From positions 7,750,001-7,814,000 of the forward strand of contig OY727102.1 in NCBI GenBank assembly GCA_963402885.1: 64,000 nt of DNA, in the 5' to 3' direction. Made by a program: the position numbers and the translations under genes. Shown here piece after piece: positions 214 through 63,313 of the stretch. The stretch's first letter is position 1. The number at the start of each line of letters is the position of its first letter. The notes under the pieces are model-generated. The model was not told where the DNA came from, did not search any database, and saw only the letters and a list, made by a program, of their open reading frames with translations. The DNA is from Antedon bifida. Taxonomy: Eukaryota; Echinodermata; Crinoidea; Comatulida; Antedonidae.

Positions 214-1196
214 CGAAAAATCTCCATCAGTCGGAGGTATATCAACCTGAGCTTTTGTCCACTTGCTATATACATTCGAGCTGTACACCATCCATGCTGG
301 ATCAGTAGGGAAAGCAAGAGTCGCATCATCTATGAACACGTTCAGATGATCCCCAACTCGTGTAGTATGCATTGTGAAATAAAACTGCAAACATTTTGAG
401 TGGCTTTGTTGATGCATCTTTGGAGTTCGGAGGTTTATTCTGTCATATTCAGTAGTTCTAACAATATGTGCATAATGACCACCTAAAATTGTAAGTATAC
501 AATATATCGTTACACCGTACTGTACAATTTTGATAGATGAGTATTCTTTATTTCTAATAAAATAAATTGAATTATTTAAACACTTTTCTCCTGTTCATAT
601 CAAGTGTACTAATTAATTTTAAGGGTTTTTGTTCCTTTATATCTCTAGGCCATAATCCACAACATTCTCGTACATTTAGTACAGGCTCAAAAACACAACG
701 TAAAATATAGGGTGAGCCGAGTCTTGCAAAATAGAATGGATTTTCTTAATTAATCTTTTTATTTAAAAAATGGAATGTATCGAACTCTGCTCTATTCAAA
801 ATATGCGCGGTACATACGTTTTGTTCCAACTGATTTGTGAATAAACTGAAAAGGAGAATATAATTAAATTACGGGCTCTTTGAAAAGTGACATAATGAAC
901 AGAGAATACATGGAATTGTCCTTCCAAATCGAATACCTTTCCATAACAGTTTAGTTTGTAAGGAGAATCACTGAGAATTGTGATAATGATAAAATAACAA
1001 TTATACTTACTGTTGGTTCCTGTAGTGTGGTCAGTATTCGGTAAACGATAGTACTGTTCAGAAGATGCAGGAGATTTAAGCCACAAATGGGATTCGCCTT
1101 CCCCAAGTGAATACAGACAGTCAGTCTCAAAATCACAATTGGCGTTGTCCACCACAGGTTCCGGAGTAGTCACCACTGGAGTGTCTGTAGTCAGTA
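214..1196 (-). CDS. Gene A third MAM domain, MAM6-type (exons 6-7, incomplete)
   Basis: Exon 6 (1011-1196) begins with a Thr/Pro linker (TTDTPVVTTPEPVV) like the one before MAM3 of gene B, but continues with CDFETDC and RLPNTDHTTGTNS, which align with MAM6 of B (RLPNIDNTYGTPSG). Exon 7 (214-482) has INLRTPKM, CLQFYFTMHT, LNVFIDD and FPTDPAW, matching the MAM6 core of B and D. It ends in phase 0 at a GTAGGA donor. The closing exon lies outside the window. Confidence 0.82.
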
Positions 1197-4100
1197 CTGA
1201 AAGAGAGTTTTTTACGTTTTGAAATTTGGTAAAAAATAACCTTTCATCATTCACCTCGTGACATTATTTGTACTATTCCACTCATAAACATTCATTATTT
1301 GTATAATATTAAATGGAAGATATTGCAACGAAAATGTTTGTATTTGAAACAAATGCGTAATAAATACTACACACATACCGAGACAACAAACGTCTTTGAT
1401 ACATATCATCGGATGAAGTGTCAATTATTGACATTACTTGTCAATTTAAAAATCACGAGTAATGTCAACCTCTTTCATTATATTGGTGGTGTATCCCCAC
1501 AACAGCTTTTAGGTATAATTTTTTTTATTTAACTAAAGGACCTAACAACCAAGTATTTTATAAAGTTTAAACTTTCCAACAATGTTTATCTACTAGCATG
1601 AACATTCATTAGAATAATCAAGTACCACCATATTTAAAACAAAATATTGTCGTATACAGTTTACGAAATATAAGTATTCCTAGCTATCTATGCGGCTGCC
1701 TGTAGTTGAACCAAGGCAATCTAATAGCAGGATGCTGAGATCTGGAGACCAAAAGGTTTATCTGTGGCTGCGACATGATCAGTTCCATAATTATGTACTG
1801 TTGGTATTTGTCGCAGCCAGACATAAGATCAAATGACTGTTACGAATTCCTATCTTTGCTCAGCTCAATGTCCTGTTCGTGGATTGCCTTGGTTGGCAAA
1901 GCTATAGACCCATACTTACACATTTCGCATGAACCTTCGAAAATCTCAACGTCATCAATACAGTGTATACCTTCACCCATACCTCTAACCGCTTCAAACC
2001 CAACTTTGAAACTATTTACAGTTGAGGGAACTTGGAAATACGCTCTGTGCCATATTTCACTCTGATCATTCTCAACATTAAACATCAGCTGGGATTGTTC
2101 GTCATGGTATATAAAAGCATTGATATCTCCGACGTCATAGCCACTCAGGAAATACCAAAATTTAATACAATGGTCATCGTTGTCCGAAGTTGTATTGAAG
2201 ATGGCTGATACGATGCGGGCTCGATGTCCAGGTAGTTTAGGTACACGGCGTTGATCCATACAAATATAAAAACCTATACAATTGTAAAAGTAGCAAACTA
2301 TACATTATTAGTCAACTTTTATAGTTTCTTTTAAAACAAGCAACGTTTTCTTATCTGATTTTCGTATTAGTAACAATTACCATAAACTTTAATTTGAATT
2401 GTCTACCCACTTACCGTAGTCTTCACCAAACGTATGATCTTCATCGGGGCCGTCTCCAGAAACACCATCTTGAGCACTGTATCTTTTCCAGTCAACGTCA
2501 TCACTGAGGTCTTGTTGGTATCCACACAGTTCTTCGTTTTCAAAATTACAAGATATTCTGGGTTCCAAGGAATCTATTTGAGAAACAGCAATTCCTTATA
2601 GGCTAGTCAATCTAGCATTTTGAGTGAAACAAATTGCAAACAGAGATTTTTTTTTTTTAAATGGTTACATATGATAAGGTGATTATTTTTTGAGCATCAC
2701 ACCTCTGACACTCATCCCGAAGGTATGCAAATTAGCTTAAATATGCAAATTAGGGTGAAATTACAGGGTTACCATATCTTAAAAACTACTAATCATAGAG
2801 AGTTCATTTTTGCACAGTCTGGTTCAGAATATATATATTTATATTTGCTCTAATGAGACATTTTACATAAAAATGTCCGGAAGTACCAAATTTTGACCCT
2901 TGACCCCATTTCTCAATATTTACATAAATATGTGATTAAAATGTCTGTAGAGACTTTATTTTGGACTCAATGACTTGGATATTGTTTTTCAATATCCCCC
3001 ATAGAACTGTATTATAATTCCCAAAATCACAACTTCGTGACGCACCTCGAAAGTATGCAAATTAGTAGTACAAGTAATATTAAATATGCAAATTAGGGAT
3101 TGAAATTACAGCGTTGCCATATCTCGAAAACCGCTAATGCTAGAGTGTTGATTTTTTCACTAAAATATTTAAAATGTATATATTTATATTTGCTGTAATG
3201 AGACATTTTACAAAAAAATGCCCGGAAGTATGACATTTGACCCTCGACCCCATTTCTCAATATTGCATTATAATGAAAACTAAAATGTCTGTAGAGACTT
3301 TGTTTTGCCCTTAAATGACTCTGATACAGGTTTATAATAGCCAACATAGGAATGTTTAGTAAATCTCAAAATCACACCTGTATCACTCACCTTCAAAGTA
3401 TGCAAATTATTAGTACAAGTTACATGAAATATGCAAATTAGGGGGTGAAATTACAGGTTCCTATATGTATCGAAAACCGCTAAGGTAGAGAGTTGATTTT
3501 TTCAAAAACTTGTTCAGAATGTACATATTTATATTTGCTCTAATGAAACATTTTACGAAAAAATGACCGGAAATACAACAATTGACCCTTGACCCTATTT
3601 ATCAATGTTTGCATACATAATGCGACTAAAATGTCTGTAGATAATTTTTTTGGACTCAAATGACTCGGATACAGTTTTCCTATCGTCAGCATAGGACCTC
3701 TTTGTAATTCCCAAAATCACATCTTTGTCACACACCTTGAAAGTATGCAAATTATTAGTACAAGTTACATGAAATATGCAAATTAGGGGTGAAATTACAG
3801 TCTTCCCATATCTCGAAAACCATTAATGCTAGAGAGTTGATTTGAATTCAGAGTTGATTCAGAATGTACATATTTATATTCGCTGTAATGAAACCCTATT
3901 TCTCAATATTTTCATATAATTCAACTAAAATATCTGTACAGACTGTTTTGGCCGCAAATGCCTCAGATACAGGTTTTCTATAGCCAGCATAGAACTGTTA
4001 GTAATTCTCAAAATCACACCTTTGTTACTTCCCTAGAAAATATGCAAATTAGTAGTACAAGAGGTGAAAGTTGCCATATCTCTATCGGTCATTAGCGTTT

Positions 4101-7100
4101 TTCGAGATACATAAGGCTGTAATTTGCATAATTTCAAATAACTTGTACTAATAATTTGCATAATTTCGAGTTGCTTGACTTTTGGAATTACTAAACGATC
4201 CTATACTGGCTATATAAAACCTGTATCCAAGTCATTTGAGGCCAAAACAAAGTCTGTACATACATTTTAGTTGCATTATATGCAAATATTGAGAAATAGG
4301 TTCGAGGGTCAAATGTCATAGTTTTAATAAATTTTTTTTTCGATAATGACCCAGATACAGATTTTCTATAGCCAGCATAGAACTGTTTAGTAATTCTCAA
4401 AATCACACCTTTGTTACTTCGCTTGAAAGTATGCAAATCAGTAGTACAAGAAAGTTGCCATATCTCTTTCTCTCGGTCATTAGCGTTTTCGAGATACATA
4501 AGGCAATTCATTGTAATTTGCATATTTCATATAGCTTGTACTACTAATTTGCATACTTTCAAGGTGCTTGACTTATACTGGCTATATAAAACCTGTATCC
4601 GAGTCATTTGAGGCCAAAACAAAGTCTGTACATACATTTTAGTTGCATTATATGCAATTATTGAGAAATAATAATAATAATATCCTGGATTTATATAGCG
4701 CCTTATGTTGTGATATGACGTATCTGTTTTCATCGCGTAAAGATATCTTTAAACAAGGCCATATAGATGGCTGCAGTTGCGTGCTCAAGCTACTGTAGTG
4801 TTTACCGACCGACCAACCGATCAACATAGTGAGTTAAGCAGTGATTTACTTCACAAAATATATATTATCAGAAATTTATAAAATTGTAATTTTCTTAATT
4901 GGTTTTGTTTTTAGTATATACTGTAAAATCAAGTCTAGAATACAATACAATGTTATGTTGCAAAGCATGGATTAACATAATTGTAATATGTTATATACAA
5001 CCTATTCCTTTCCCATTACTACTTCATTTTCTTTTTTAATTTTTCTCGATAAAAATAGTTTATCATGTAGTTATGCAGTTTTCAATAATTTTGGTTAAGA
5101 TAATTTCCTCAAAGAAAAATGAAATAACAATACCTATTTTCAAATTTAATCTCTTCCCGATTAGTTTCCAGAAATGTATCAAATTGCGGTAATTTTTATG
5201 TGTTGTTTTAGTTGATTTCTGTAAAATCAATTGTTTTGAATATAATACTTGCTTCCTTGTTTCTTTTTGAGAATTATGAAAACATTTCCTTATATGGTCA
5301 TATACTTTTAGACCAGCACTTAAAGTGATAAACTATTTAAAATTATAAATTAATAAGTAGTTAAAACGTAACTTGGTCTGTGTTGAATTAATCAAAATCA
5401 CTAAAAATACTTAGCCGATTATCGGTACACCATCTAAGTATCATCACAAAATCCGTAATACAGCTTCAAATGTGTTTCTTATGCGACGCCTGTATCATCC
5501 TAACCTAACTATTAACTATAATTTAACCCCCATGATATAGTTCATGAGATGCTGTAACACTGGAGGCTGTCTATGATGCAGAACAAGTATTTTCATATGA
5601 GATTCAGTACTGAGAATCGGGCGTAAGGGTCTTTCACACCTGTTCCGGCACAGTTCCTGTCTGGCTACAGCAAACCTAATCCAACGTCAATGTTTTGTTT
5701 TGATGCATAGCCGCGTGGAGGGTCGGCGTGAAAACGAAACACTCAAATTCGGTTTGTCGGCTCCGGACCAGAACTGTGCCGGAACAGATGCTGAATGATC
5801 CTTTAAATAGGCCTCCTCGATATAATTGAATTAATTTTACCCGTATGCATGTTTATATATTTCAAATAAATTATAAAGCATTCCTAACTTACATTCACTG
5901 TTAGGACATACACTTTCAGATATATGTACATTGTCAATTGATATTGAAATTCCACTTCCTCTATTTGCTTCAAACACGACCTAAACATAAAACAAAATTG
6001 GTTTAGGGATTATTTTTTCTGTCTAATCGAACTTAAAAATACCAACTAACATGAATATGTTGGTCGATAGTATTCACTCTCGCAGAATCATAATAATCTT
6101 CTCGAACATTTAAAACAATCATACAGTAAAATAATAACGGGTGAATAACTCACTTTAAACGGATGATCGCTTGTCAGGTCTATCTCTATGGGACGCCAAA
6201 CATTTCCCATATCACCCGTTATTTGCCATATTGGCTCACCGAAGTAGGTTTCATTCCAGCTTTGATAGATGCTAAGCGTTCCTGTCCGCCGACTTCCAAA
6301 AATGTTGTACCAAAAGGTCAAACATTTTGGTCCTCCGTTATATACAGATGAATATTCTGGGCTTAGAAGTCTAGACACACCCGTTGAATATGCGTACATA
6401 AAGTATCCTATAGATAAAGTAGAAAACATAAATAAAGAGTTAGTCATTCAAATAGTGAAGTGAATTTTCGGTATGTGCTAAATAGGGAGGGACGAATAAT
6501 TAACCATTAAGATCACGCCTCAGCTGTAATCTTTTTTTTTATCCAAAATGATTTGAGCGTGATCTCTATATACAAGACACCAAACAAACAAACAGGATAG
6601 GATAAACGCAGAAAGTTTATGCAAAAATGTCACGTTAGAGGACGTCTTTCATATTACTACTATGAAATTGTCCGTTTACACGTTTTAAATGATTTCGTTG
6701 AAAATATTTTTTCTTTTTCTTTTTAATGTCTAGAACACAATAAAGTCATTAGCTGTGGCACACTAAATTAAATATTTATGTTTTAAGGCAGCTGGCCCAA
6801 TTTAATAGGCCTACCTATAAATAAATTCCCTCCGAGGAGTGAACTTGAACTTAAAAACGTGTCTGTCTACGAGATACTGTTTTGCAAAGCGTGCCGTCGC
6901 ACTAAAAATTAAACATTCCGTGTCATTTACGGTACTTTACTAGATTTACCGTTCTACTACATTTTGTTACTTACAGTATCTGTCAAAAACATATGCTTGT
7001 TAATAAGTTTCTTTTTTTTTTCATTTCATAACTTGAAGGTGGTTTATTTTTGTTATAGTCAAGATACTATTTTTTATCAGATCCTATCAGAAATTGCCAA

Positions 7101-8526
7101 CGGCATACATTCCTGCCGCAATGGGTGACTGTTTAAACAAACCTAATATATAACGGTTATGACTATTTTACGAGGTGTATGTAAAAAAAACACATATGAT
7201 CAGGTTTGAGCCGATTTATCTGTTTGGCTACCCGATTATGAGTGCTTTCTCCACATATATGACAATAGTTGCCCATTACAGCATCTCGTGTGTATCCGAC
7301 ATGTTGTGCATAATAGTAGCCTAAGAATCGTAGTATTGCAGCTGCGGCATCAATGGCTTTCCTTACCAGATATTCAGTACCTTCCATTGATGCTCAATGA
7401 AAAACACTACAACCCGTAACCAACTCGTCATAGATTCCAAGAACTTCAGCCCGGAGATACCAATGCAATGTCTCTATGGTATGAGGTAGGTCTACATAAT
7501 ATACCTAATTTATCGCATCATACTATCTACAGTAGAATAAGGTGCCATTAGATTAAGTGATGCGTGTTAAAGCCATTTTTCATATCCTGTCACTTCCGAA
7601 AGGCGGAAACCGTTTCTGGTACGTCCCTGCACTAAAAAACATGTTTATACATCTAATTGCTTTCCGCCTACTGCATTTTCTTCCTGGGCATTGTACACCC
7701 GGGCATTAACATATTGTATTAGTTATCGGTTTAGGTTTGATAGAGCTGATTAAAGCGATAATTATAAATAGAGGAACAATTATGTTAACGCTATACATAG
7801 GGTACTCACAATTTAAATAATTATATCAATTGCAGAAATAACAATATCATATGGCGCCTATACAACAATAGGCCTATTAGCTTATATTTTATTTGAGAAT
7901 ACTTTCACAAGTAATTCTCGGGTGGGACTCCAACCCACGACCTCCAAATCAACTGGCGTTCATACATCTAGACTACCGAGCTTGCGTAGTAAGTAGGCAG
8001 CGGGTACTGCACCAACATGATTGTAATTGTTTGTAACTACACTACGTCAGAGTAGAGCAAAACATCTGACCAATTAAACCCTGACGCAAATGTACTCCAC
8101 AGTAGTTGCAAACAATTGCTATCAAGTTAAATACATTTTATTTCATATTTACAATCAGGAAATTCAAAATATGCATGAGATGGCGAAAAGGTGCCACAAT
8201 TGTGTGGCTGAATATAAACAGATATACCAAAATGCTTTCTTAAAATTGTTTCCAACAAAAAAGAATGGCATTTTAAACTTTAGGACCTATTGAATTGAAT
8301 ATGACTTACCGGTATAATTGCCGTTCAGACTATCAGAGGGTAGTGTCTGTACACCAATATTGCCTTCTCCGTTCCATCGAAGCCATCTTCCATCATCTGT
8401 TTTATCCTGCTTTATCCGACACATGCTTTCCTCAAAATCGCATATCAGTTGATTTCGGCGTCTTGCATGTGCTGTTATAGCTAAAAGTAGTAACAGACAA
8501 ATACTTAATGCACCTTTAGAAAACAT
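214..8526 (-). CDS. Gene A: multi-MAM-domain receptor, 5' part (3' end outside window)
   Basis: Predicted secreted or type I membrane protein made of MAM domains, which are extracellular adhesion modules. The seven exons seen, in transcript order, are 8310-8526, 6154-6407, 5893-5980, 2415-2573, 1920-2273, 1011-1196 and 214-482. All have AG acceptors and GT donors, and the phases close (1,0,1,1,1,1,0). The first ATG at 8526 opens a hydrophobic leader (MFSKGALSICLLLLLAITAH) followed by the first MAM cysteines. MAM1 and MAM2 match the other genes of the cluster. The third domain is of the MAM6 type seen in genes B and D, so the architecture differs from B. The next exon would lie left of base 1. 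A TATA box and a CCAAT box lie upstream. The product is not recognised as a named gene. Exon calls are strong; function is inferred only from domain content. Confidence 0.88.
1920..2573 (-). CDS. Gene A MAM2 (exons 4-5)
   Basis: Exon 4 (2415-2573) carries SCNFENEELCGY, DVDWKRYSAQDG and GPDEDHTFGEDYG. Exon 5 (1920-2273) fuses the core and the carboxy-terminal strands (GHRARIVSAI, CIKFWYFLSG, FEAVRGMGEG, CIDDVEI) in one 354-base exon, exactly the length of exon 5 in gene B. The open frame runs on past 1920 for 80 bases, but a GTAAGT donor at 1919 in the conserved phase is the better end. Confidence 0.87.
2690..4670. repeat. 345-base repeat array with inverted units (gene A intron 3)
   Basis: The word AAGTATGCAAATTA starts near 2721, 3051, 3396, 3741 and 4038, giving a period of about 345 bases and a shortened last unit. 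Each unit also holds CATATCTCGAAAACC, TTATATTTGCTCTAATGA, a CCGGAAGT word and TTGACCCTTGACCCC. From about 4090 to 4330 the unit runs in the opposite orientation, from 4335 to 4475 it is direct again, and from 4480 to 4670 it is inverted, so the RNA or single strand could fold back. No coding capacity was seen. Confidence 0.8.
4668..4754. repeat. Short AAT run and TTTATATAGCGCC repeat fragment
   Basis: A run of AAT triplets leads into CCTGGATTTATATAGCGCC, a phrase common in dispersed repeats of marine animals. It joins the 345-base array to a CGGT-family element. The family name is not known to me. Confidence 0.4.
4755..4836 (+). mobile_element. CGGT-family element, copy 1
   Basis: It begins AAGGCCATATAGATGGCTGC, then GTGCTCAAG, a run of CCGACCGACCAACCGA and ACATAGTGAGT. 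Four other copies share this order (23,135; 26,075; 56,651; 62,094). This copy lacks the GTCGCGT hairpin end seen in copies 2 and 4. Confidence 0.65.
5625..5804. mobile_element. Non-autonomous inverted-repeat DNA transposon (180 bases)
   Basis: The left end AAGGGTCTTTCACACCTGTT and the right end (read inverted, AAAGGATCATTCAGCATCTG) are imperfect inverted repeats. Inside each is a perfect GTTCCGGCACAGTTC block. The element has no coding capacity and lies in intron 3 of gene A. The general look is hAT-like, but I could not settle a target duplication. Confidence 0.65.
5893..8526 (-). CDS. Gene A signal peptide and MAM1 (exons 1-3)
   Basis: Exon 1 (8310-8526) encodes the leader and the MAM amino-terminal strand, with the cysteine pair in CDFEESMC and the tryptophans of GRWLRW. 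It lacks the usual GPxxDHT stretch, having GVQTLPSDSLNGNYTG instead. Exon 2 (6154-6407) is the core, with CLTFWYNIFG, FGEPIWQITGDMGNVW and the FK end. Exon 3 (5893-5980) gives VVFEANRGSG and the SIDNV strand, ending with the last cysteine. Exon 2 holds the typical aromatic core of a MAM domain. Confidence 0.87.
7915..7995 (-). mobile_element. tRNA-derived SINE head or tRNA pseudogene
   Basis: Read on the minus strand, GCTCGGTAGTC resembles a pol III A box, and GTGGGTTGGAGTCCCACCC, about 35 bases on, resembles a B box inside a T-arm. The rest does not close a convincing cloverleaf acceptor stem, so a SINE head is likelier than a working tRNA gene. It lies in intron 1 of gene A. Confidence 0.5.
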
Positions 8527-37839: not shown

Positions 37840-38216
37840 CTGTTTTGCAAACAATTAATAACAATATGAAAATCGTTCTACCTTGCTTACAAATATCTTG
37901 CTAACATAAGTACATAAGTTGCATAAAGCTTTCTGTTTTCGTTACAAACAACAAAGGAAAAAACAACAAGAGATATCATTCTACAAAACATAGAAATACA
38001 GATTTTATAGCAGTTAAATTATTACAGTCCTCTTAAATGTGCGGAGAAAACATACATGTGTAAAAAGCATAATCATCAACGGGAGTACCTTTGGAAGAAA
38101 TTAACCTGAATTAAAAGAAAGTAGATTTTTGAAGTGTTTTGCATGATTTACAGATTGTGTAGCGGGTCTAGAAAGTATATTGCAAATGTTAGCATGTTTT
38201 TATACATTAAAGTTAC

Positions 38217-46062: not shown

Positions 46063-46064
46063 GT

Positions 46065-49012: not shown

Positions 49013-49239
49013 CTAGTTCGTTGTCTCTTCTTGAATCAGTCTATCATCTGTATTTGTACTATCTGAGCCTTTTGGCTGCTTTACAAATTTCCAACGATAG
49101 AGCAATAACAGTAAAAGAAGAATCATTACGATTGCAAAGAATACAGATAGACAGACAATGGCAGTCAACTGAGACGACGATTCAGTTACTTCTGGCCGCA
49201 CTGTTGTTTTCTTTATTTCAGGTCTTCCTGAATCAGACG
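49013..49239 (-). CDS. Gene D last exon: membrane segment and tail
   Basis: ASDSGRPEIKKTTVRPEVTE, the same leucine-rich span as gene C (VFFAIVMILLLLLLLYRWKF) and a tail ending DDRLIQEETTN. A second in-phase AG 12 bases further in corresponds to the acceptor of gene C, so two forms differing by four residues are possible. Confidence 0.9.
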
Positions 49240-52200
49240 CTGAAAATTGAAAATAAAATATAATAAAAATAAAATAAATATTGTTGTTTTTTAATGTAAG
49301 TATGTAGGCCTACATTAAGCCTACGCTTGAGACTACGATTTGGTAGTGTTTCTTTTTTCAATCAATAGAGTGCTCCTCCAGTAACTCTATACCATTGTCA
49401 AAATATTTCGATGATCAAATGTTAAGAACAAATTTTGTTAAGACATCTAGTGATTATGGCTACAAACCTGATGTACATTTTCCATTTTCAACCATAATAT
49501 CATCAAGCGCCATCAACCCGGTTCGTTCTCTACCGACCATACCTTCAAACACAATCTAAATTGTGGATTAAACATTTGTTGGCAATATATATTTATATTA
49601 AGTAATTTGAATATTTATATTGAATTGTTATGTAAATGTAGGCCTACTAAATTTAGTGTAAATATATTATCGTTTATGCTCGGATAAATATATACAAAAA
49701 TGTATGACTTTCAGGAAATCTTTTTTCGTTTTCATTCTGCTCTAACGTATTATTATTATATAATATTTACATTAGCAAAAACCCAAAATATTAATATTAA
49801 TTACCGTAAAAGTTTCTGATTGGGGAAATAAGTTAACACTACGTTTATGCCATGTTGCCTGATGTCTTCTTGGTAACGCAAAAACTATGCCTACTTTTCC
49901 AGATGATGATTTGGTGTAGATATCAATAATTAAATCACCAGTACTGACATACGAATAGTGTAGACAGTGATGCAAACCAGCCGAGATAGCTTGTGATGTT
50001 AATACAACACGCTGACCTGTTCGTAATTCTGATGCTTTGACAAATATGTATGAACTTTGACCTGGAAAATAAGGTAGTAGATTTGTATTATTTATTATGC
50101 GTGTGACTTTGTTGTACTCATTCACATAAAGTGATCCAAGTTTTTGTGGTTTTTTTTGTGTATTTTGTTGTGTGTTTTTTTAAAGAAAATGTCAAAGTTC
50201 TATTGAATTATAATTAGGTCAATTGCATTCGTTAGAGGCAAAGTATTACAACATACAAATGGTGGTTAGTGGGAGGTACGAGGTTTTGAAAGAATGGATA
50301 ATTCTGATTTTATAAGTCACAGTACTAGAAAATAATTAGAAATATAAATTACTTTGGGATAGAACAACATTTGTATCCTTCGAAATGGTTTGGTTGCCAT
50401 CAATTCGTGTCGATGCATTAAAGAAGGTCCAGTCTAATAAATTTATACTATCATCATCTCCACTGCCATCTTCATTGGTGTTTTCTTCAAATCCACATCT
50501 CTTTACACCACTCTCAAAGTCGCAGAAAATTACGCTAACTGGGGGATTATCTGGCGGCGGATCACATGACATGATGACAACTTTGACATCATCAATCGCA
50601 ATATCTCCTTCATGTCCATAGCCAACTATGCCTTTGAAGTGTACCTGTATTAAATATAACGGTAAGTGAATTATACACGTACGTTCATTTGAATAAAACT
50701 AATTTCTTTAATTCTATAAACATCGACACACATTCATTAAAAAAATCTACGGTTCTCATTTATTCTAACCATTTATTACAGTACATTACATATTTCTGTA
50801 CCATTTTTCTAACTCACCTTCATTGAATGGTTAAGTAACTCCTTAGAACCATTCTTAAAGTATCTTTTAACATTCAGTGGGAGAATTGCTTTTTTCCAAT
50901 TATCACCTTGATCTCCTGTATTTGACCACAGTAACTTCTTCTCATTTATTGCAGGCGTTACTCTGTACACTTCCAAACTACCTATTGACTTTCCACGCAT
51001 ATTATACCAAAATTGAAGACATTTGGAATCAGCAGATGTAGGTAGAAGTGGACTCGATAATTCTGCTGCGTCAAATGGTATCCGTGGATGTGATGTTTCA
51101 ATATACATATAATTCCCTATTTGAAATGTTATATAACATTACGTAAAATTCATGCTACTTTCAACCATTAACCACACATTCAATCCAAGCAAATACAGTA
51201 GCCCCACAAAGATCACTCATACATGTTGAGATTTGATAAGTTAATACAATTAATGCATAATATGTATATATGCATATATGTATCCATACAAAATAATAAT
51301 TCTGCGTTACGTTTAAACTCAAATTATATATATATATAGATATATACCTTCTTTTTCTTCACTTATATATGTGTGGTCTTGTGTTGGTCCAGAGTTTATT
51401 GTTTTTGTTTTTCCTCTAATTTGCGTCCAATTAAATTTTGCCGTATGCTCATCTTTATATCCACATATGTTTTCACTTTCAAAGTCACAATCAATAGTAG
51501 AAGTCCATTTTGGTTCGATAACTAAAATAGTAATGTAAATTGTTTAAAAACAGTAGTTATGGCCACGAGGTACACGGCCACTATTGTTGAGAAGTGTACT
51601 ACAAACTATGTTATACTAAAGTAGGCCTACCTTTAATACATGTATTGTTCAAAAGGACGACATCGTCAATTGCAATATCAACGTGGTATTCACCTCCGGA
51701 TCTTGGTTCAAATACAATCTATCGAGTAACAAAGATGTAAAGTCCCTGTAAAAACTGGCAAGATTTCATGTCATTCGATCTTACCAATCCAGTTCATGGT
51801 TCAAGTTAGACTTTCCTCAAGTCTGTATTGTTTTCTTAAGTTATGTTAGTCTAGTCGGCGTGTCGATTTTTTTCCTGAAACACAGACTTGTAAGACGCGT
51901 ATACAAAAATCGATTTGCAGATCGCAAACATCCTGTAAGAATGACGTATATTATCATACCGTATTTGGCTAATGGGGCGGGTTTATGTAAATATTATGGT
52001 TATAGAATCAACCAATCAACGGACCTTTGCGATGGGCGATTTTGTAATGGGGCGACTGTGCAGAGGCGACTTTGCAAGGGGCGACTTTGTATGAGGCGAC
52101 TTTGCGATGGGTTGACTTGAATAGCATCCGGCCTAGAGTACACAAAACACACACCTCGAACGTGATATATTCAACGTAAGAGAGCGCATGCGTAACTTAA

Positions 52201-55200
52201 GTTTTTAGATTTCGAGTGAGTAGCCAATCGCATGCGGCTAAAACTAGTCAACCGGATAATCGTATGCACCAAGAATTCTTGGTGTCAAACCACGTGACTT
52301 GTCCGTGTTTGTTGCACAGACGATGTTTTAGCTCAAATGTATACGTATGAAACGCCATATGTGCCAAAATAGTTATCCTTTTACTAATATTAAGTCAAAA
52401 CACCATTCGGCACCCAGACTAGGTTCAAATCTTTGAAGCTTTTAAACAAATATTTTCTACTATCTACCAGACACAGCGCAAAATGCAATGCAACAGGACG
52501 CTGACCTCGCCTTGCCAAGATAGGAACTCGATCGGACCATTACTTGTCTGACAAATACATTGATTAGGCCCAGCCTATTTGTTTCTACTATTCTTGTTAC
52601 ATGCCTTTTTTTTATTGTACCTAACTTTACCGAGTAGTTTCCTTTAGTGTATCCAATATCAACTTGAACACGATTCCACCGGTTGCCTTTCTTGCCTATT
52701 GAATGCCAGATTGGATCAACGGGAAAGTGCTTAATTGATTCATCATCAACGTAAATATTGAGACTAGAAACTGCATTTGAGTTCATATAATAATAAAACT
52801 GTAAGCAGCGTTTATTAGTAGTCATCTCTACTACTGGTGTACGAAGAAAATTCCTTTCTGTTGGGTGTTGAGTATGTCGAAATGAGATAAAATAGTAATG
52901 ACCTGAGAAAATCAATAAAAAAAATGTCATAGTTATTGGTTCCATATCATACATTTGAAAATGATTACTAACTCCTAAATACACAACATATGCAAGAAAA
53001 ACATTACTCACCTGATGGCGTTCCATACGTATTATCAACATTTGGTAACTTTTTATGTTTGTAAGTTTCTTTATTTGACAGTTGCCATCCGTTAGCTAGT
53101 GATGTATTGGTCGAAAGGTCACAGTCTTTTTCAAAATTACAGTCAATTTTGTCTACGATTTCGGGTACTGATTATATAAAAAGTATTATAAAATAAAGTA
53201 AAATCAAAGGTAATAAACAAAACTCTCTTTTGGAATAATCAAGCAACAGTGCAACCACAAACTAATAATACATAAGTGTGTACTCATTTGAGCATGAAAT
53301 GGTAAATTACTGTACGTACCTGGACAGCGTCCTTTACCGATCGAGATGTCATCGATTGCCACAAATCCATTTCTTTTGTGGCCTATATTGGCTTCAAACA
53401 TAATCTGCAAAATATAGTTAAAACTATATAATTGATTTAACCCGTAGACCTGCATATATAAGTTTATCTTTAAAAATGTATAGGCCTACTTACTGAGAAC
53501 TGTTCATCTTCCTTTAATGGTTCCAAATCTAGTGAGTGTTTTGCCCACGATGGTGCCATTTGCCTCGTCAGAGAAGTCAATAAGAATTGATTTGATGAAC
53601 GAATGTTCAAACTAAAATCTTGTTTAATGATATAATACAAGTGTAGACAATACCGTTCGGCGTACTCAAAGTTAGGAGATACAATCGCTACATGTTTGTT
53701 TTCTTGTTCAATGTCAGCATATAAGAAAGAATTGACACCTAATGAAGACAAAATGTAATACAGGTATAAGTTGTACAAGTATACAAGTTGAAGTAATACA
53801 TAGAGTATTTTCATTATAAATAAAACACTCACGATTTTACTGACGGCTGTTCTGTGCATTCTGACTGATCACACTTTATAGATGTTAAGAAAATGTTCTA
53901 TTCTGAGTTTTCCTATTTCATATACATTTTTGCTATTACTCTAGTAGCTAGATCGAGACCCAAGGCATGTGTGTATCTACGTAACTACTGGTTGTAGAAT
54001 TGTTCGAAATATACGTTGTGTTATTTGCTGCACATTAAGAATGTTAAAAAAGGTTAAAGGGTCAAATTAAAGAGGTACTTTTATCTCGGCAAACACTGGT
54101 CACAGCAATCAATTTTGGTCTCAAAATGTTGAGAAGGCATGCATTCATATTCAGTCTAATGGGGCATTTTAGTCAAAAATGATCAGAAATGCCATTTCTG
54201 ACCTTTGACTCACATACCAGGGCATCTTCATATCTCTGTATAAGTACTGGTCGTAAAATGTGTAACCAAGCCAAAAATGATTGTTTGACCACCCTAAACC
54301 AATTTCTGAAGTCAAACTCAAAGTCAAAAACTGGACCTCAAGGTGCATACGAAAGTAGATCTGGCTACTAGAGTGTTATGGTTTGTACTGATTGTGGAGA
54401 ATATTTAAACTATCTAAAATTCGAATATTACACGTTGTCCGACAAATATTCATATTGTACTACCTTTAGAAATACCGATGGATGTTGTACTGCCTATGTG
54501 CCATGATGCATACTGATGTTTCCATGGATACCAGGTATGATTTGGGAGATAATCGTTGTAGTTACATTTGTTGGGGTGGCTATTGAATTGGCAATGTGAA
54601 TGTGTAATTGCAGGTTCTGGTGCATTACATTCATTATCAACAAGTGTAATATCATCAAGAGCAATATCTCCTTTATGTCCACCAGCAATAAACGCTATAA
54701 ACTGGAACTGAAATCAGATAATGCAATAGTATCAGATTAGTTCCATCATGATATAGATTGGGGAAAAGATCACATGATTACCGTACATGAACGCTCTCAA
54801 CTTTTCATATTGAGGAAAAACCTACTTGTAAAAACTTAGCGAGTAGTCATTGCTGAATAGTATCTATATATAAATTATGGTTAATTCTGACATAGGCGAG
54901 CACAATGGAAAAACTTCGGTACACATCTCTGCCTTGGATACCTACCTGATCTATCTCAGATGTACCGTGAAATGTAAATTTGATAACATTAGTTTTCACT
55001 ATTACGATATTGTTCAATATTTCTATCTTAGGAATATATTATAAAGGATTTTATATCAACATTTTTGATTTCATCAGTATATTTTCAATTCAATTTCAAT
55101 TGTACGCGGGTCGAAGTAATCGCCAGGTTCACGATAAGTTCACATATTCACCTTGCAACTTTCTGGTTTCAACATCTAAGTTGGCCGTGGCCGGCTATAG

Positions 55201-58200
55201 CCATTTTAGTTTTTTTGTTTATTCGGATCGGACCACGCGTGTGAAGGTACGGTAGTTAAAAAATTAAAATTGTACTGCAAATTAATAAAGATCAAATTAA
55301 ATATACGCCATAAAGCATCGGAATATATTGTGGGGAATAGTATTATAAAATTACATAGGGAGATCTGATGATAAGACAGTTTGTGTTTAAAATCGAGTGA
55401 AATCCCGATAGCCGAGTTTTATTGAGTAAGCTGGCAGGAATAACTGTAGGCTATCTGTGTCATGTTGCAAGCCGTCTAAAACGTCTTCCTTTTTGGGCCG
55501 AAACGGCCCACTCTGTCGCGGAAGTTAGTTTAAAGAGATGTTTAAATTAAATAATGTATTCACTATTAGGATGACATTTATTTGAATAAACGCCTCCCCA
55601 ATAAAACATCACTTTGAATAATAATCTCCCCCCACCCCCAAACCCAACTATCTAGTAAACGCGCATCCACATTTATACACACAATATTGTATTATATTTA
55701 TAGTAACACAATGGTACTATTTGTAGTAGAATTCATCGCACTGTTATCTACAATTTACCAAAGTATTTGTTATTCTTTTTTACCACTTTTCATATATCTA
55801 TTACAGGATTTTATTTGATTATAAATGTTACCACATTATTAAAACTAAAAAATTAAACATATCCCTTGAATAAGCACCTCCCTTAAATGAACTCCGCCTC
55901 CCCACCTCAGCCTTATAAAAGGGCCCTACCAAACAATACACACTATAGGTCTACTTTAAAATGTTATTAATCATCTAAGACACTGTGAAACAGAGTAGGT
56001 TTAGTTTTACGAATGTCAGGCATTTTCACCGACAGAAAACGTACAAGGAGAACGTCCTTTTTTACCCGAGTCATTATCATTCCGAGAAACCATCGTCTAC
56101 ACTTCCTAGAGAGGGGAGGGGGCGAGCGAACCCTCTAGTATAAATAATTAATACAAATCCTAAAAACGATCTAAAGCTAATTCAAATGCCTTTTTGAATG
56201 AAATTAGTACATATATATCTCCACATCGTACACAAAAATCTGCTGCTGCATATCTCGCGGTGGTGTTTACAAACAGAGGCATGACAACAGGTGGCGCTGT
56301 TGTATTTTACAGTAATTTGTACATCAGATTTTTTTTCATCCCCGAAACGTTTTTTTTTTTCGTACACAAATATGTTTTAAAAGTACTATTAAACGATCGT
56401 TGAATAGTGCGTACTATTGAACGCCATGTGACCCACAATCGTCTAATCAAATGACAGGAATTTATTTAGGTGTTATATAATAAACAATATTACATAACAG
56501 TTTGTCATACATATTAATACATTAAGCTCTGTCTAAACTATCAAACTAGTTCGTCAAAAATAAGTGTGATGTGCCAAAATCTGGTAGTGACATGTTTAAA
56601 TATGGTAGTGATATGACATCTTCATGTCATATATGGGAACATCACTTTTAAGTCGCGTGGACGCGACTCTATAGTTCACTATGTCGCTCGGTCGGTCTGT
56701 CGGTCTGTCTGTCGGTCCGGTATCACTATGCGTTTTATTGCTTTTCTGTACTTTTTGAACTGTTTTGATGTACAGAAAAGTTTTAAAGTAAATTACTTTT
56801 TGAAAGTTCATTTTTTTCTGAGAGCACGCGACTTATGGCTGTTGGCCTTGTTTTTAATTAAACTAGTTTGATAACGTAAAATTTGATAGTGTAGACAGAG
56901 CTTTATACATGTTAGTCATTACGCAATATATAGCAGTGAAATTAATATTAGTTTGAATATTACTGTAGTATGGCGACAATTAACATTCCGTTACGATATC
57001 GTTTATCGCATAAACTTTATGAATCACAGGTTATAATCCATAATTTAATTCAAATTTACATATAAAAATTAGTGTTAATTTTATACCTGCACGTATTCAT
57101 CGTACATAGTTCTCTCGTTATCAAGATCAATAGTGCCAAGTGTCCATCCCGAGGTACTAGATGTTACAGTCCATAGATCGTCTCGTATATAATGCCCCCA
57201 AGACTCTCCACGTATTTGAATTCTCAAACTACCACCGGTGTGCTCTCCTTGCATGTGATACCAAAACCGAAAGCACATTGGTCCATTGGAATGTCTGAAC
57301 ATTGGTGTGCTGATATAAAAGTATTCACCTTCTCTTGATCGTTCCGATGCTTCAAGGTATATATAGTGTCCTTAAACCAAATAAAAGATTAGTTTAAAAT
57401 ATTTTCTTTACTTTAACAACAAAGTAATTGTGAATCAGTATTATATTAGTTAATTAAATGATTTAGAATAGAACGCTATCTTTTTAGAACAATTATATAA
57501 AAATATATCTGGCCATCAGCCAGTCATAATTTGTTTAAAATCTACTTGGATATTATTATTATTTATTTCCATGTTAGGTGTTTCACGTGTGTACGAACCA
57601 AGCAATGGCATTGTCTTCAAATTCAACGCCAGCTTGAAATTCAACTATGTCGGGTATTACTGTGACTCGGCAAAGTAAGCAGGTGGTAGAGAGACAACTA
57701 AGGCCGAAATCATTCATTCAAAGGAGTTAGCCCCATGATTAGAGACGCTATTATGGACATTGTAATACGATATTTAATAGCTAACACCAACACTATGCTA
57801 GATAAGATGTGACATAGATTTTTGGTAATCTCGTAAGGTTGAGGCAGGTACGCATTGTGTCCGCCTATCTATAAATTAAGCATCATGTAGGCCTACAGAG
57901 ACATAATCGGTAAGCTTAACTATGTGTTGTCTTACCCTCTCTTGTATTTAAAGTATGATCGTTGTCTGGCCCAGTACCAAGTGAGGGTGTTGGACCTTGA
58001 AACCGTATCCACTCCTTTCTCGTTTCTGGTTGGCTGTATCCACACATTTCTTCGCCTTCGAAATCACAATCAATTGTTGAGATAAATGGTTCAGGTTTAA
58101 CTAAATACAACCATAAAAATAATAAATAATTCCATTAGCAAGGATGTACGCACAATCTTTAAAATAAAATAAAGTAAAGCTTTCTAAATTCGTTTTTTAT

Positions 58201-61200
58201 ATATGCCTAATATTTTATTGATATAAATGACTTCGTAATGTTGTTACTAAGAAAATCATATGGTTATTATAACACAACGATATAATAAAAATAAAACATT
58301 TAAATAATGATAGATTGAAATCATTGGAAAATAATTACTCATGGTATAGTATTCAGAATATCAAGATATTTGAAGGTAAGAATTTGCTAAAATACCTGCA
58401 GAACATTCCTGATTGTAGAACGTTACGTCATCAATACCAAATTTAAACATTGCCTCAATTACTAATTCGAAAATCACCTGTAAAATAAAATAACTATTAT
58501 AAACGTCTGCTTAAACTTTCAGTTATCTAATTAATAATTAAGACTATTAGTTGTTACCTCTAGTAGCTAGATAAACTTTCGTATGCACTTTGAGGTCCAG
58601 AGAATTTGACTTCAGAAATTGGTTTAGGGTGGTCAAACAATCATTTTTGGCTTGGTTACACATTTTGAAAATGTGGTGAAAGGTCAAAAGGTCAGGGTAA
58701 AAGGTTATAAGATCAAACATCAATATGTCCTTAAATCTCGACAACCACTGGTCACAGCGAGGTTTTTTTTGGTCTCAAATTGATCAGAAGGTATACATTT
58801 ATATTCAGTATAATGGGATATTTTCGTCAAAAATCACCGGAAATGCAATTTCTGACCTTTGACACATAACCCAGGGCATGTATTTATCTCCGTACTACTG
58901 GTCGTAGAAATATATATTTTGTTATTTGTTACACATTTTGAAAATGTTACAAAGGGTAAAAGGGTCAGGGTCAAGGGTTATATGAACAAATAAAAAAAGG
59001 TACTTGTATCTCGGCAACCACTGGTCGCAGCAAGTCAAGTTTGGTCTCAAAATGTTCAGAAAACATGCATTTATATTCAGTCTAATCAGGGAAGAGTTAA
59101 ATTACAATTTCCCTGGTCTAATGGGGCATTTTAGTCAAAAATTATCAGAAATGCCATTTGTGACCTTTAATCCACATACCAGGGCATCTCCATATCTCTG
59201 TAAGTACTAGTCGTAGAAACTTAAATTTGGTATCAAATTGTTCGAAATATACATATTTACATTCATTGTAATAGAAAATGTGGTTAAAAGATGAGAAATA
59301 CTATTACTAATGTTTCAACTGATACTTTAAATTGTTTTGATAGAAACGTCTAGCTCAACAGTTCTTTTTAGAATGCTAGAAGTAACTTGCCATATTTATC
59401 CGAATAAACGCACAATAATTTATCACAACACATTTCATTAACTATAGTCCAGTTCCCTATGTAAAAAAAAGTGCCTTCGTGTGCAGATCATGGGGAAAGT
59501 GTAAACATTGTGTTTTATGAATGTTTGAATCATGCTGGTTATAAAAACCCATGTTGTCAAATTTCTAAAATTCAACTTTGACCTCTGACCTCAATTTGAA
59601 TATTTTGACCCATTGAAAACAAAATGGTCATATCTTTGCAACGCTTAGATTAAATAAAGTAATTTTAGTTTCAAATTATTTGGAAGATGTATATTAATAT
59701 TCGTTCTAATGAAAAAGTTTGTCCAAAAATGGCCGGAAGTATGATTTTTGGCATTTTTGACCTTTGACCTACATATGATATAACTTCGTAACTAACAGTT
59801 GGACAAACTTTAAATAGGGCTCAAATTATTCTGAAGGTATAAGTTTCTATTCAGTCTAATGAGAACTTTTTCAAGAAAATTACTTAAAATCTTTGTATTG
59901 ACCTTTGACCTGTACTGGTAGTACACATTCCTATAATCTCAAAAACTATTGGCCGTAAAAGGGTTTTTTTTTTGTGAAATTTTTCGAAAAATTTACATTT
60001 ATATGTTGTATAATAACAAAATTTTATAAAAATGTAAAAAAATTCAATTTTCGAAACCTAACTTTGTAATTTATTAACATCACTAGCGTTTGTTATAGTA
60101 TTAGTAATGTGTTATATTTGCTGATTTTGAGCACTTCAAATGAATTTATCAGAATTATGTGTATTTAATATTAATTTTTTTTTTTTTGATATAAAAAAAA
60201 TTTAATTATCTATCAAATAAGACCATTTTCAAATTATTATAGCTAAAATTTAATTAGATACAGGGAAAAAAGTGTATTTTTACTTGGGTAAACAGCGCCC
60301 TCAATCTTCATTTTTTCCCTAAAAATACCACATTTTTATGTGGTTTCATAAACTTAGCTGGTTATAATTTTGTTTCAAAGATTTTTTACAGTAACCTGTA
60401 ATTTACATACCCCTTCTATAACATACTAGGTCAGTTTCTGAAAAAAATTTAGAAAAATATCCTTATAGCTTGATATTTTTGTTGAGGTTATTACATGATA
60501 CATGCCAACAAAATATTTTAAATTTTGTGCTAAAAGTCCATCTTTTTGGTTTAATAAAAGCTATCTAGCAGTATTACTACACAAAATTCATATTTTATTG
60601 GATAGATTTTATGATTATCTTTCCAATAAAATGTGCTGTTTGTGTAAGAATGTCTGTACAAGATTGTTTGTACTGACCAAAAAGATGGATTTTTAGCACA
60701 AAATCAAAATCTTTTTTAGCGTGTACCATGTAATAACCTCAAGAAAAATATTAAGCTATCAAAATATTTTTTTCATTTTATCTCAGAAACTTACTTATTA
60801 TATGGTAGAAGGGGTATATAAGTTACACGTCACTGACAACAAATCCTTTAAAAAGTTACAACCAGCCAAGTTTATAAAACCACATAAAAATGTGGTATTT
60901 TGAGGGAAAAATGAAGATTGAGGGCGCTGTTCACACAAGTAAAAATACACTTTTTTGCCTGTATCTAATTAAGTTTTAGTCATAATAATTTGAAAATGGT
61001 CTTATTTGATAGATAATTAAATTTTCTTCATATGAAAAAAATAAAACTTCATATTAAATACCCATAATTTTGATAAATTCATGTGAAGTGCTTAAAATCA
61101 GCAAATGTAACACATTATAATACTAAAACAAACGCTAGTGATGTTAATAAATTACAAAGTTAGTTTTCATAAATAGAATTTGTTTACGTTTTTATAAAAT

Positions 61201-62991
61201 GTTGTTATTATACAACATAAAAATGTACATTTTTCTAAAAATTTCACAAAAAAACCCCTTTTACGGCCAATAGTTTTTGAGATTATAGGAATGTGTACTA
61301 CCAGTACAGGTCAAAGGTCAATAAAAAGATTTTAAGTAATTTTATTGAAAAAGTTCTCATTAGACTGAATAGAAACATATACCTTCTGATTAAATTGAGC
61401 CCTATTTAAAGTTTGTCCAACTGTTAGTTACGGAGTAATATCATATGTAGGTCAAAGGTCAAAAATGCCAAAAATAATACTTCCGGCCATTTTTGGACAA
61501 ACTTTTCCATTAGAACGAATATTAATATGCATCTTCTAAATAATTTGACACTAAAATTATTTCATTTAATCTAAGCGTTGCAAAGATATGACCATTTTGT
61601 TTTCAATGGGTCAAAATATTCAAATTGAGGTCAGAGGTCAAAGAAGAATTTTAGAAATTTGACAACATGAGTTTTTATAACCAGCATGCTTCAAGTATTC
61701 ATAAAACGCAATGTTTACACTTTCCCCATGATTTGCACACGAAAATACATAGGGAACTGGACTACTACCATAATCTACAATTTACCAAGCATTTTGACAA
61801 AAACACTTTTTGATATTAATTGTGCTGTATTTTTTTTTATATCTAGGTGGTATTTATTTGATTATACATGTTACCATATTATACCCCAAAAAATGATGCC
61901 TCCTCTCCCCCTCAAAACCCTTTTGAACAAAAAATGCCCAGAGCGTTTATTCGGTCGTTTTTGACTAAAATGCCCCATTAGACTGAATATAAATCCATGT
62001 TTTCTGAACATTTTGAGACCAAACTTGACTTGCTGCAGGCTACGCACGTGTAAATTAAAAAAATATAAATGTTTTTAAACATTTTCAAAATTTCGGTCGG
62101 TTGGTCGGTCGGTCGGTCGGTCGGTCGGTAAACACTAACTTGAGCACGCGACTGCAGCCATCTATATGGCCTTGTTGGCTTAGAGCACACTTTTCATATC
62201 TGAAATATACACATAGGTCGCGCTGATTTAAATGGTAGGGGCGGTTAAGTAAGGGTCTTCTGCACCACCTCAGTCCCATCATGGTTGGGGCTAAGGTAAG
62301 AAAATGGAAACATGGATCTTTAGTTAGTACAATCGTATCAAAGTTCTCAATTCTTTAACACTAATGTTATTGATTTGTACTGTATAGGGCCTACCTTTTA
62401 ATTTATGAAGAGAGAAAGTCACGTTTCTTTCTTGTTTGTGTTTAAAATTATAAGTAACCCGTTACTAGTGTGTAATAATAATCCTAATGGACATTAATGT
62501 TATTTTACTTGTACAGTACTTCTTCTGTGTGTGTGTCGGGATGTATTATACTCACGGTGAAATTGCCATTTGTTTGCGGCAAATCCATCTGTATTTGTTT
62601 CCATTGCTTTACGCCTGTATTTCCACGAGTATACACTTTCAAAAATGGATCAACTGGTAACGCTGTGTCTTCACCAATGGCCTGATCCATAATGTGGATG
62701 TGTAAGGCTCCTTCAGGACATAAATCTCCAAGACAACGGTAGTTGAATTTCAAACAGTTAGAAACGCTATTGCTGTAAATGTATGGCGTCCGATAAGCCC
62801 AACCAGACTTTTCATACGTTATTCCTAAATAATGTCCTATACAACAAAATATAGGTACAATAACAAGATTAGTATTATCTTCATGTTTATGTAAAAATCA
62901 TCACCATTAGTAAAAGAAGATCACCATTAATGTCATAATAGCGATCACCATCCCAACTGCGTTATTATTTCATCATCATCATCATCATCGC

Positions 62992-63028
<37 letters not shown>

Positions 63029-63313
63029 TTGAATCATCATCGTAATCATCATCATCATCATCATAATATTCTTCATCGTCATACTTCCAAATGTTTCATA
63101 TTGTGCCAAAGGTTATGTCACTGACAGATTGCATCTTACCATTTCCTCCAACAGTATGGTCATATCCTTGCTTTATTCCCCAACTTGTCTCCTTCTCATC
63201 ATAGGGACCATAGCCACAGTCATTTTCCTCAAATGTACAACCTGCGTCTTCTATGTTTATCACTTGCCACGGAACTTCGGGTTGTTTCTTTGGAGTGGGT
63301 GTCGTACTATGTT
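49013..63313 (-). CDS. Gene D: multi-MAM receptor, MAM3 to stop (5' end outside window)
   Basis: Seventeen exons in order: 63140-63313, 62556-62836, 58396-58477, 57936-58100, 57087-57370, 54464-54707, 53494-53738, 53320-53404, 53012-53167, 52631-52902, 51631-51718, 51348-51521, 50818-51116, 50353-50644, 49805-50061, 49468-49555 and 49013-49239. All have GT-AG introns and the phase closes (3,413 bases plus one carried in, 1,137 residues before the stop). They correspond to exons 6-22 of gene B: MAM3 to MAM8, membrane segment and tail. Exons 1-5 must lie to the right of base 64,000. Intron 7 is about 4 kb and holds a 3-kb palindrome. No defect was found, so the gene looks functional. A cell-surface adhesion or recognition role is inferred from the domains. 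Confidence 0.9.
49468..50644 (-). CDS. Gene D MAM8 (exons 19 in part, 20, 21)
   Basis: CDFESGVKRCGFEENTNEDG is close to gene B. QSSYIFVKASELRTGQRVVL, CLHYSYVSTGD and IVFEGMVGRERTGLMALDDI follow. Confidence 0.91.
50353..51521 (-). CDS. Gene D MAM7 (exons 17-19 in part)
   Basis: CDFESENICGYKDEHTAKFN, GPTQDHTY, LSSPLLPTSADSKCLQFWYN, LNVKRYFKNGSKE (shared with B, not C) and VHFKGIVGYGHEGDIAIDDV. Confidence 0.91.
51631..53167 (-). CDS. Gene D MAM6 (exons 14-16)
   Basis: CNFEKDCDLSTNTS, KLPNVDNTYGTPSG, GHYYFISFRHTQHPTERNFL, CLQFYYYMNS, FPVDPIW and IVFEPRSGGEYHVDIAIDDV. All three exons are present, unlike gene C. Intron 15 holds a 615-base member of the 9-base-duplication family. Confidence 0.91.
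51807..52421. mobile_element. Longer member of the 9-base-duplication transposon family (copy 3)
   Basis: TAGACTTTCCTCAAGTCTG opens it and CACCCAGACTA closes it. GGTTCAAGT (51,798-51,806) and GGTTCAAAT (52,422-52,430) are the 9-base target duplication. The inside carries the family word ATGAAACGCCATATGTGC plus extra sequence including the GGGGCGACTTTG minisatellite. Confidence 0.7.
52028..52115 (+). repeat. GGGGCGACTTTG minisatellite (16-base class)
   Basis: About five imperfect units of GATGGGGCGACTTTG type in tandem, inside the transposon copy in gene D intron 15. Confidence 0.65.
53320..54707 (-). CDS. Gene D MAM5, divergent (exons 11 in part, 12, 13)
   Basis: CQFNSHPNKCNYNDYLPNHT, GVNSFLYADIEQENKHVAIV and IMFEANIGHKRNGFVAIDDI. 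Exons 11 and 12 are close to gene C, while exon 13 differs from the B/C version. Confidence 0.9.
54050..54385. repeat. TGACCTTTGAC-bearing repeat unit
   Basis: ATCTCGGCAAACACTGGTCA, TTCATATTCAGTCTAATGGG, AGAAATGCCATTTCTGACC, then AAGCCAAAAATGATTGTTTG and CATACGAAAGTAGATCTGGC. The last 125 bases reappear inverted at 58,555-58,683. Confidence 0.65.
54464..58100 (-). CDS. Gene D MAM4 (exons 9-11 in part)
   Basis: CDFEGEEMCGYSQPETRKEW, GPTPSLGTGPDNDHTLN, PMFRHSNGPMCFRFWYHMQG and FQFIAFIAGGHKGDIALDDI. Intron 10 (54,708-57,086) is full of repeats. Confidence 0.9.
54846..55010. repeat. Repeat, inverted partner of 40,440-40,615
   Basis: TATATATAAATTATGGTTAA, GACATAGGCGAGCACAATGG and GCCTTGGATACC are the reverse complement of the copy in gene C intron 1. 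The two differ by roughly one base in seven by eye. Confidence 0.65.
55265..56520. other. Repeat-poor part of gene D intron 10 with C-rich patches
   Basis: Contains CTCCCCCCACCCCCAAACCC near 55,626 and CTCCGCCTCCCCACCTC near 55,890. The part around 55,751-55,850 resembles 61,780-61,880 (AATTTACCA...TTTATTTGATTATA). No gene was seen. Confidence 0.45.
56523..56905. mobile_element. Inverted-repeat element carrying a nested CGGT element
   Basis: AAGCTCTGTCTAAACTATCA at the left and TTGATAGTGTAGACAGAGCT at the right are inverted mates, with AAACTAGTT next to each. The element is split by the CGGT-family copy at 56,651-56,850, so the CGGT element inserted later. Confidence 0.7.
56651..56850 (-). 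mobile_element. CGGT-family element, copy 4 (nested)
   Basis: It starts (plus strand) with the hairpin AGTCGCGTGGACGCGACT, then TTCACTATGTCG, a CGGTCTGTCGGT run, extra unique sequence, and GAGCACGCGACTTATGGCTG with GGCCTTG. It is about twice the length of copies 1 and 2. Confidence 0.65.
58396..63313 (-). CDS. Gene D MAM3 (exons 6-8)
   Basis: Linker TTPTPKKQPEVPW, CTFEENDCGYGPYDEKETSW and DHTVGGNG (63140-63313). YRTPYIYSNSVSNCLKFNYR and ALHIHIMDQAIGED (62556-62836). IFELVIEAMFKFGIDDVTFY (58396-58477). The last exon is 4 kb away across the palindrome. Confidence 0.9.
58555..59290. repeat. Direct repeat units leading into the palindrome
   Basis: AACCACTGGTC occurs at about 58,742 and 59,019, a 277-base unit. 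Each has TTTGGTCTCAAA, TTATATTCAGT, TAATGGG and a CTGACCTTTGAC-like word. The first 125 bases are the inverted copy of 54,250-54,375. Confidence 0.65.
59579..59911 (+). promoter_or_regulatory. Three DR1-type sites in the left palindrome arm
   Basis: TGACCTCTGACCT (59,579), TGACCTTTGACCT (59,758) and TGACCTTTGACCT (59,899) are perfect direct repeats of the nuclear-receptor half-site with one spacer base. The match is exact. Binding is inferred. Confidence 0.45.
61308..61640 (+). promoter_or_regulatory. Three DR1-type sites in the right palindrome arm
   Basis: AGGTCAAAGGTCA (61,308 and 61,449) and AGGTCAGAGGTCA (61,628), the mirror copies of the left-arm sites. All three stay perfect in both arms. 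Confidence 0.45.
62094..62173 (-). mobile_element. CGGT-family element, copy 5
   Basis: A run of CGGT units (about seven) then AAACACTAACTTGAGCACGC, GACTGCAGCC and ATATGGCCTT. The hairpin end is absent. It lies just outside the palindrome. Confidence 0.7.
62971..63070. repeat. ATC triplet microsatellite in gene D intron 6
   Basis: Long CATCATCATC runs with a few interruptions, preceded by ATCACCATTAGT-like words. It lies in the same intron as the 79-base minisatellite of gene B. Confidence 0.85.

Follow-up and report, generated by a model that had tools for sequence, protein, structure and literature searches.

A head-to-tail cluster of MAM-domain receptor genes, one of them complete with eight MAM domains, in Antedon bifida

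The window that we analyzed, a stretch of Antedon bifida DNA of 64,000 bases (G+C 33%, N-free), carries a cluster of neighboring MAM receptor genes, which is best read as a family of type I adhesion or recognition receptors that duplicates locally and is without a known signaling domain. Profiles for three MAM exon types, derived from the window itself, were run on both strands and gave matches throughout the minus strand but, at E up to 1, only two weak ones (E = 0.16 and 0.32) on the plus strand. As shown in Table 1, AG/GT splice sites link the MAM exons into four head-to-tail minus-strand genes with a common exon plan, transcribed from right to left in the order G4, G3, G2, and G1. The typical MAM module is predicted to consist of exon a (phase 1 to 1), exon b (phase 1 to 0), and exon c (phase 0 to 1), with exons b and c fused in MAM2 (2bc) and exon c fused with the following exon a at the MAM4/MAM5 and MAM7/MAM8 junctions (4c5a and 7c8a); these exon models are based on splice-site scores and on agreement between the copies. 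Profiles and splice-site chaining thus bear out a preliminary description of this DNA, which had proposed four genes on one strand with the same exon plan, and the outer limits given there, 214 and 63313, coincide exactly with where G1 exon 3b ends and G4 exon 3a starts. The same description had set a single giant gene against its own reading. All modeled exons lie on one strand and their phases are compatible, as a giant gene covering the entire cluster would have it, but a leader with a start codon is present at G1, G2, and G3, and a membrane span with a stop at G2, G3, and G4, and these intervening leaders and stops make a giant gene extremely improbable. An Rfam scan of the whole window returned 0 matches.

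Table 1. Coordinates of the four MAM receptor genes and of individual exons in the window
Feature	Position	Strand	Description
G1, 5' part	214..8526	minus	7 exons seen; MAM1, MAM2, and most of a third MAM; the left edge cuts the gene
G1 leader exon 1a	8526-8310	minus	exon model
G1 exon 1b	6407-6154	minus	exon model
G1 exon 1c	5980-5893	minus	exon model
G1 exon 2a	2573-2415	minus	exon model
G1 exon 2bc	2273-1920	minus	exon model
G1 exon 3a	1184-1011	minus	exon model
G1 exon 3b	482-214	minus	exon model
G2	14412..25679	minus	22 exons; 1,495 aa; signal peptide, MAM1-MAM8, one transmembrane span, 35-residue cytoplasmic tail
G2 exons 7a-7b	16489..17188	minus	example of the slowly changing membrane-proximal half; pN/pS 0.27, G2 vs G4
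G2 exon 4b	20550..20818	minus	example of the fast-changing region; top window pN 0.55, pS 0.49, with insertions/deletions (G2/G3/G4 sliding windows)
G3	28203..41231	minus	21 exons seen; G2-like plan; stops in exon 1, exon 6b missing
G4, 3' part	49013..63313	minus	17 exons, 3a to TM; MAM3-MAM8, membrane span, 28-residue tail; 5' end past the right edge

The complete copy, G2, is evidently the "gene B" of the preliminary description and has every part ascribed to it there, namely a leader, eight MAM domains, a membrane span, and a short tail. Its coding sequence of 4,488 nt is open as far as the stop, and its hydropathy peaks mark the leader (residues 3-21) and the membrane span (residues 1442-1460). 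Tails of 28-35 residues were measured across the copies. Pfam was queried at a threshold of E ≤ 0.001 with four sequences (G2, G1, the first part of G3, i.e. exons 1b-6a, and G4). The MAM profile (PF00629) matched the joined exons of each, in eight stretches of G2 (E = 6.4e-214, 702 bits against a cut-off of 26.4 bits), six of G4 (E = 1.8e-150), three of G1 (E = 3.6e-77), and five of G3 exons 1b-6a. The MAM exons of G3 from 6c to TM match the window-derived profiles, which were themselves partly built from those exons. No Pfam family other than MAM was found at this threshold in the four queried sequences, in agreement with the view that the gene products are pure MAM receptors. The earlier claim of four eight-MAM genes stands for G2, which is whole, but goes beyond what the other copies display, as six of the eight positions are visible in G4, G3 is damaged, and G1 shows three domains; G2 is the only copy shown complete as an eight-MAM gene. 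Further, the four conserved cysteines that are a feature of the MAM family are in place, with Cys in 23, 23, 24, and 23 of 24 rows at the four columns, and the misses fall in two truncated rows, G3 MAM1 (first exon absent) and the G1 third domain (last exon absent).

A maximum-likelihood tree was built from 24 domains, with G3 MAM6 absent and G3 MAM1 and the G1 third domain partial. All eight positions group by position across the genes, with 7 changes, the minimum, against a mean of 17.7 for shuffled labels, and ultrafast bootstrap support is 100 for seven of the eight position groups; the exception is the MAM3 group (72), the sole group that holds the G1 third domain. This grouping of the G2, G3, and G4 domains by position shows that the eight-MAM plan predates the split of these three genes and that one ancestral eight-MAM gene was duplicated as a whole. 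Within the chain, the tree pairs MAM5 with MAM8 (99/98), MAM4 with MAM7 (91/92), and MAM3 with MAM6 (90/95), and the fused exons 4c5a and 7c8a lie at matching places in the two blocks (chance expectation 4 of 21 placements). This suggests, less firmly, that MAM3-4-5 and MAM6-7-8 derive from a duplicated three-domain block. By plain identity, only the MAM4-MAM7 pair stands out (40% in G2, 35% in G4); the MAM3-MAM6 pairing is weak (28%), and the MAM5 and MAM8 branches are long.

At the left edge of the window, G1 is near synonymous saturation with respect to G2 (pS 0.68-0.88 across seven exons) and is older than the split of G2, G3, and G4. Only its MAM1 and MAM2 were matched firmly to positions in the other copies. 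Its third domain is by identity slightly closer to MAM6 (38.0 and 36.5%) than to MAM3 (35.6, 33.3, and 32.6%), and when rows of MAM1, MAM3, and MAM6 were put into a nine-row tree, it was left unplaced, with MAM6 plus G1 at 53/16 and a long-branch warning. Because this domain is MAM3- or MAM6-like without a firm assignment, we do not date the eight-MAM plan to before the split of G1. It may be that G1 is a relic that split off before the three-domain block was doubled and that has five MAM domains rather than eight, which would explain the ambiguous affinity of its third domain.

The G3 copy is probably a pseudogene or a null allele because its exon 1 contains stops and it has no exon 6b. Exon 1 (41231-41018) exceeds its G2 counterpart by 12 bases and has four in-frame stops in an AT-rich stretch through which G2 reads. 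A search for the middle exon of MAM6 found no G3 counterpart to G2 exon 6b in the gap between 6a (which ends at 32434) and 6c (which starts at 31431), whereas the G4 counterpart is present with 85% identity. Joining 6a to 6c breaks the frame; if both remaining MAM6 exons are skipped, the phases keep the frame and the rest of the chain stays readable, but exon 1 is still broken. The other modeled G3 exons are open and still look constrained. A 42-base mini-intron (GT...AG by eye) that would bypass the exon 1 stops was considered and set aside as a faint prospect, since it has a weak donor and an unlikely length and would remove a conserved Trp.

Between G2, G3, and G4, pairwise dS is 0.46-0.72 and dN/dS is 0.32-0.36. 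We considered whether the copies might be misjoined haplotypes or assembly duplications and not paralogues, in which case a bad consensus could have produced the stops in G3. This is very improbable, as the dS values and the saturation between G1 and G2 are far beyond allelic levels, DNA matches between the copies mostly stop near exon edges, with a few crossing an intron, and the inter-gene spacers have little sequence in common. The dN/dS ratio is below 1 in every computable exon (five of the seven G1-G2 exons are saturated), and protein change is constrained overall, consistent with purifying selection. We note that MAM3-MAM4 (exons 3a-4b) change 1.8-2.8 times faster than MAM6-MAM7 (exons 6a-7b): between G2 and G4, pN is 0.278 (0.238-0.318) in the former and 0.100 (0.079-0.123) in the latter, with pS of 0.42 vs 0.45, and between G2 and G3, exon 6b being left out, pN is 0.263 vs 0.143, with pS of 0.50 vs 0.48. 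The family had been called fast-changing, which is supported in part: MAM3, MAM4, and the membrane/tail exon change fastest, and dN/dS is 0.32-0.36 over G2, G3, and G4. Among 365 overlapping windows of 20 codons, the 3 highest-ranking ones fall within exons 4b and 3b, ahead of a conserved Trp, contain insertions or deletions, and have pN slightly above pS; overall, pN exceeds pS in 30 of the 365, many of them with few changes. The variable stretch in 4b and 3b fits relaxed or diversifying change and is not proof of positive selection.

An exon-wise patchwork test on the 16 of 22 exons that are present in G2, G3, and G4 indicated that the closest pair of copies shifts strongly from exon to exon (χ2 = 210, 30 degrees of freedom, 0 of 10,000 permutations), this χ2 test taking in linked codons and amino-acid-changing sites. 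In exon 4c5a, 48 sites support G3 with G4 (vs 4 and 2), and in exon 7c8a, 55 sites support G2 with G4 (vs 6 and 15). When 4-fold sites alone were used (228 sites), the G3-G4 difference varied by exon (59 of 20,000 permutations), with no exon-wise variation for G2-G4 (19,806 of 20,000) or G2-G3 (14,804 of 20,000), and a pattern test on the 88 informative 4-fold sites gave 1,184 of 20,000 permutations (about 0.06). Exchange of exons between the copies is likely, not proven, because the silent-site evidence is modest, and unequal rates are the alternative. The cluster had been described as one with gene gain, loss, and exchange: gain by head-to-tail duplication is supported by the grouping of domains by position and loss by the damaged G3, and for exchange the patchy exon-wise similarity fits, but the signal at 4-fold sites is modest and only the G3-G4 heterogeneity is clear. 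The tandem copies with a damaged one among them, the exon patchwork, and the variable stretch with insertions and deletions in MAM3 and MAM4 would also suit a self/non-self, gamete, or immune recognition locus, in which diversity is kept by copy gain, loss, and exchange. A true self/non-self locus is possible, but we regard a recognition locus of this type as unlikely, given the purifying selection overall, the modest 4-fold signal, and the fact that tandem arrays of comparable size are common in genes without a recognition role. It is distinctly unlikely that the cluster is an undescribed recognition locus of pure MAM-chain receptors, each with a two-domain head and a three-domain block present twice, whose diversity would come from copying in place, swapping of exons, and decay, and in which the MAM3/MAM4 variable stretch would be the specificity surface (cell-to-cell or gamete).

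With regard to function, we lean toward the view that the chain of MAM domains forms the outer part of a single-pass type I cell-surface receptor that would work by contact. In such a receptor, the faster-changing membrane-distal modules (MAM3-MAM4, perhaps MAM1-MAM2) would bind a partner, either one on another cell or a soluble ligand, and the more conserved MAM5-MAM8 would serve as a stalk or as a part for side-by-side assembly. Because the proteins are without an enzymatic or known signaling domain, the output would be adhesion, endocytosis, or signaling via a partner. The solved structural relatives are extracellular MAM modules of MDGA1, enteropeptidase, SR-C, neuropilins, RPTP mu/kappa, and meprin beta; since the MAM of neuropilin, meprin, and enteropeptidase serves assembly rather than recognition, the presence of this domain does not by itself imply adhesion. 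Judging from these sequence features, contact-based adhesion or recognition would be the most likely role, with endotubin-like uptake ranked second.

The nearest whole-protein architecture is that of MAMDC4 (endotubin), which likewise has an outer part with multiple MAM domains. It differs in carrying LDLa modules between the MAM domains, whereas none was found by Pfam (E ≤ 0.001) in the four sequences queried here, and in being a single gene in mammals as opposed to a tandem family. MAMDC4 resembles the proteins described here in being a single-pass type I protein whose extracellular part is large and whose tail is short, with 40 residues that direct endosomal targeting (PMC11125477); in the gut of neonatal mice, it is said to be essential to the apical endocytic complex (PMC12746077). 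The cluster could, although this is rather unlikely, encode trafficking receptors of this kind, which would organize apical endocytosis in the gut or another absorptive epithelium and would have been copied locally for dosage or cargo range. The G2 tail is close in length to that of MAMDC4 and has YASF near its end, which fits the YxxPhi sorting pattern, but YASF is absent from the G3 and G4 tails, LDLa is missing, and few exons are as poorly conserved as the tail exon (pN/pS of 0.83 for G2-G3, 0.83 for G2-G4, and 0.51 for G3-G4).

Other known proteins share individual modules with the cluster. MDGA1 provided the best solved match to MAM2 (5oj2, E = 3.3e-26) and to the whole of G2, but MDGAs carry Ig domains, a GPI anchor, and a single MAM, and no Ig domain was found here. 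A solved SR-C-like MAM chain (8yt7) matched MAM2 and two G2 stretches, but SR-C combines a single MAM with CCP modules. The type IIB receptor phosphatases PTPRM and PTPRK likewise have a MAM domain, in adhesion, but Pfam found no Ig, FN3, or phosphatase domain here. Zonadhesin-like proteins have two or three MAM domains in their salmon, zebrafish, and chicken forms, and zonadhesins add mucin and VWD domains to MAM (PMC9275260, PMC1325057). In contrast to these mucin- and/or VWD-containing proteins, Pfam gave no VWD match here, and the zonadhesin order of MAM, mucin, and tandem VWD domains was not found. Among the open-access papers listed, there was no eight-MAM gene cluster and no MAM-only or expanded family like it, which is weak evidence that none has been described, and a scan of viral_contigs for animal relatives with exon 7b of three genes gave 17 pattern matches and no relative. 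MAM domains are usually single or mixed with other modules, and similar predicted proteins may sit unnoticed in mollusc or annelid annotations. A clustered, MAM-only family in which fast and slow modules occupy set positions offers a clean series of natural variants with which to ask what MAM chains bind. Should its allelic diversity prove high, it would add a new molecular class to invertebrate recognition; otherwise, it would be a well-defined case of local receptor gene duplication.

The spacers and introns of the cluster contain further features. Two spacer blocks upstream of G3 (42078-42187 and 45922-46067) recur upstream of G1 (10017-10131 and 10738-10891) in the same order and orientation, with about 80% identity, and were not found upstream of G2; they may be 5' flank copied with the genes or a mobile repeat. 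Between G4 and G3, on the minus strand, the interval 43199-45822 contains a 622-aa open frame that matches RVT_1 (E = 3.4e-39) and, just upstream of it in a different frame, a second open frame of 272 aa, without a Pfam match. We take the reverse transcriptase frame to be of LINE type by its look, and 43199-45822 is probably a retrotransposon remnant of that type. Several satellites and inverted repeats lie in introns. In G1, the intron that separates exons 1c and 2a has a tandem repeat of 345 bp (2739-3894), and more copies, direct and inverted, extend to 4670; in G2, the intron that separates exons 3a and 3b has a 79-bp minisatellite of 4.9 copies (22343-22729), which holds open minus-strand frames outside the G2 gene model. 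A 2.3-kb inverted repeat (59445-61764), located in the G4 intron that separates exons 3b and 3c, is 88.9% identical to its own reverse complement and looks like a foldback element or palindrome. Finally, a 71-bp satellite with 98% matches occupies the right edge of the window (63772-64000), 5' of G4 exon 3a.
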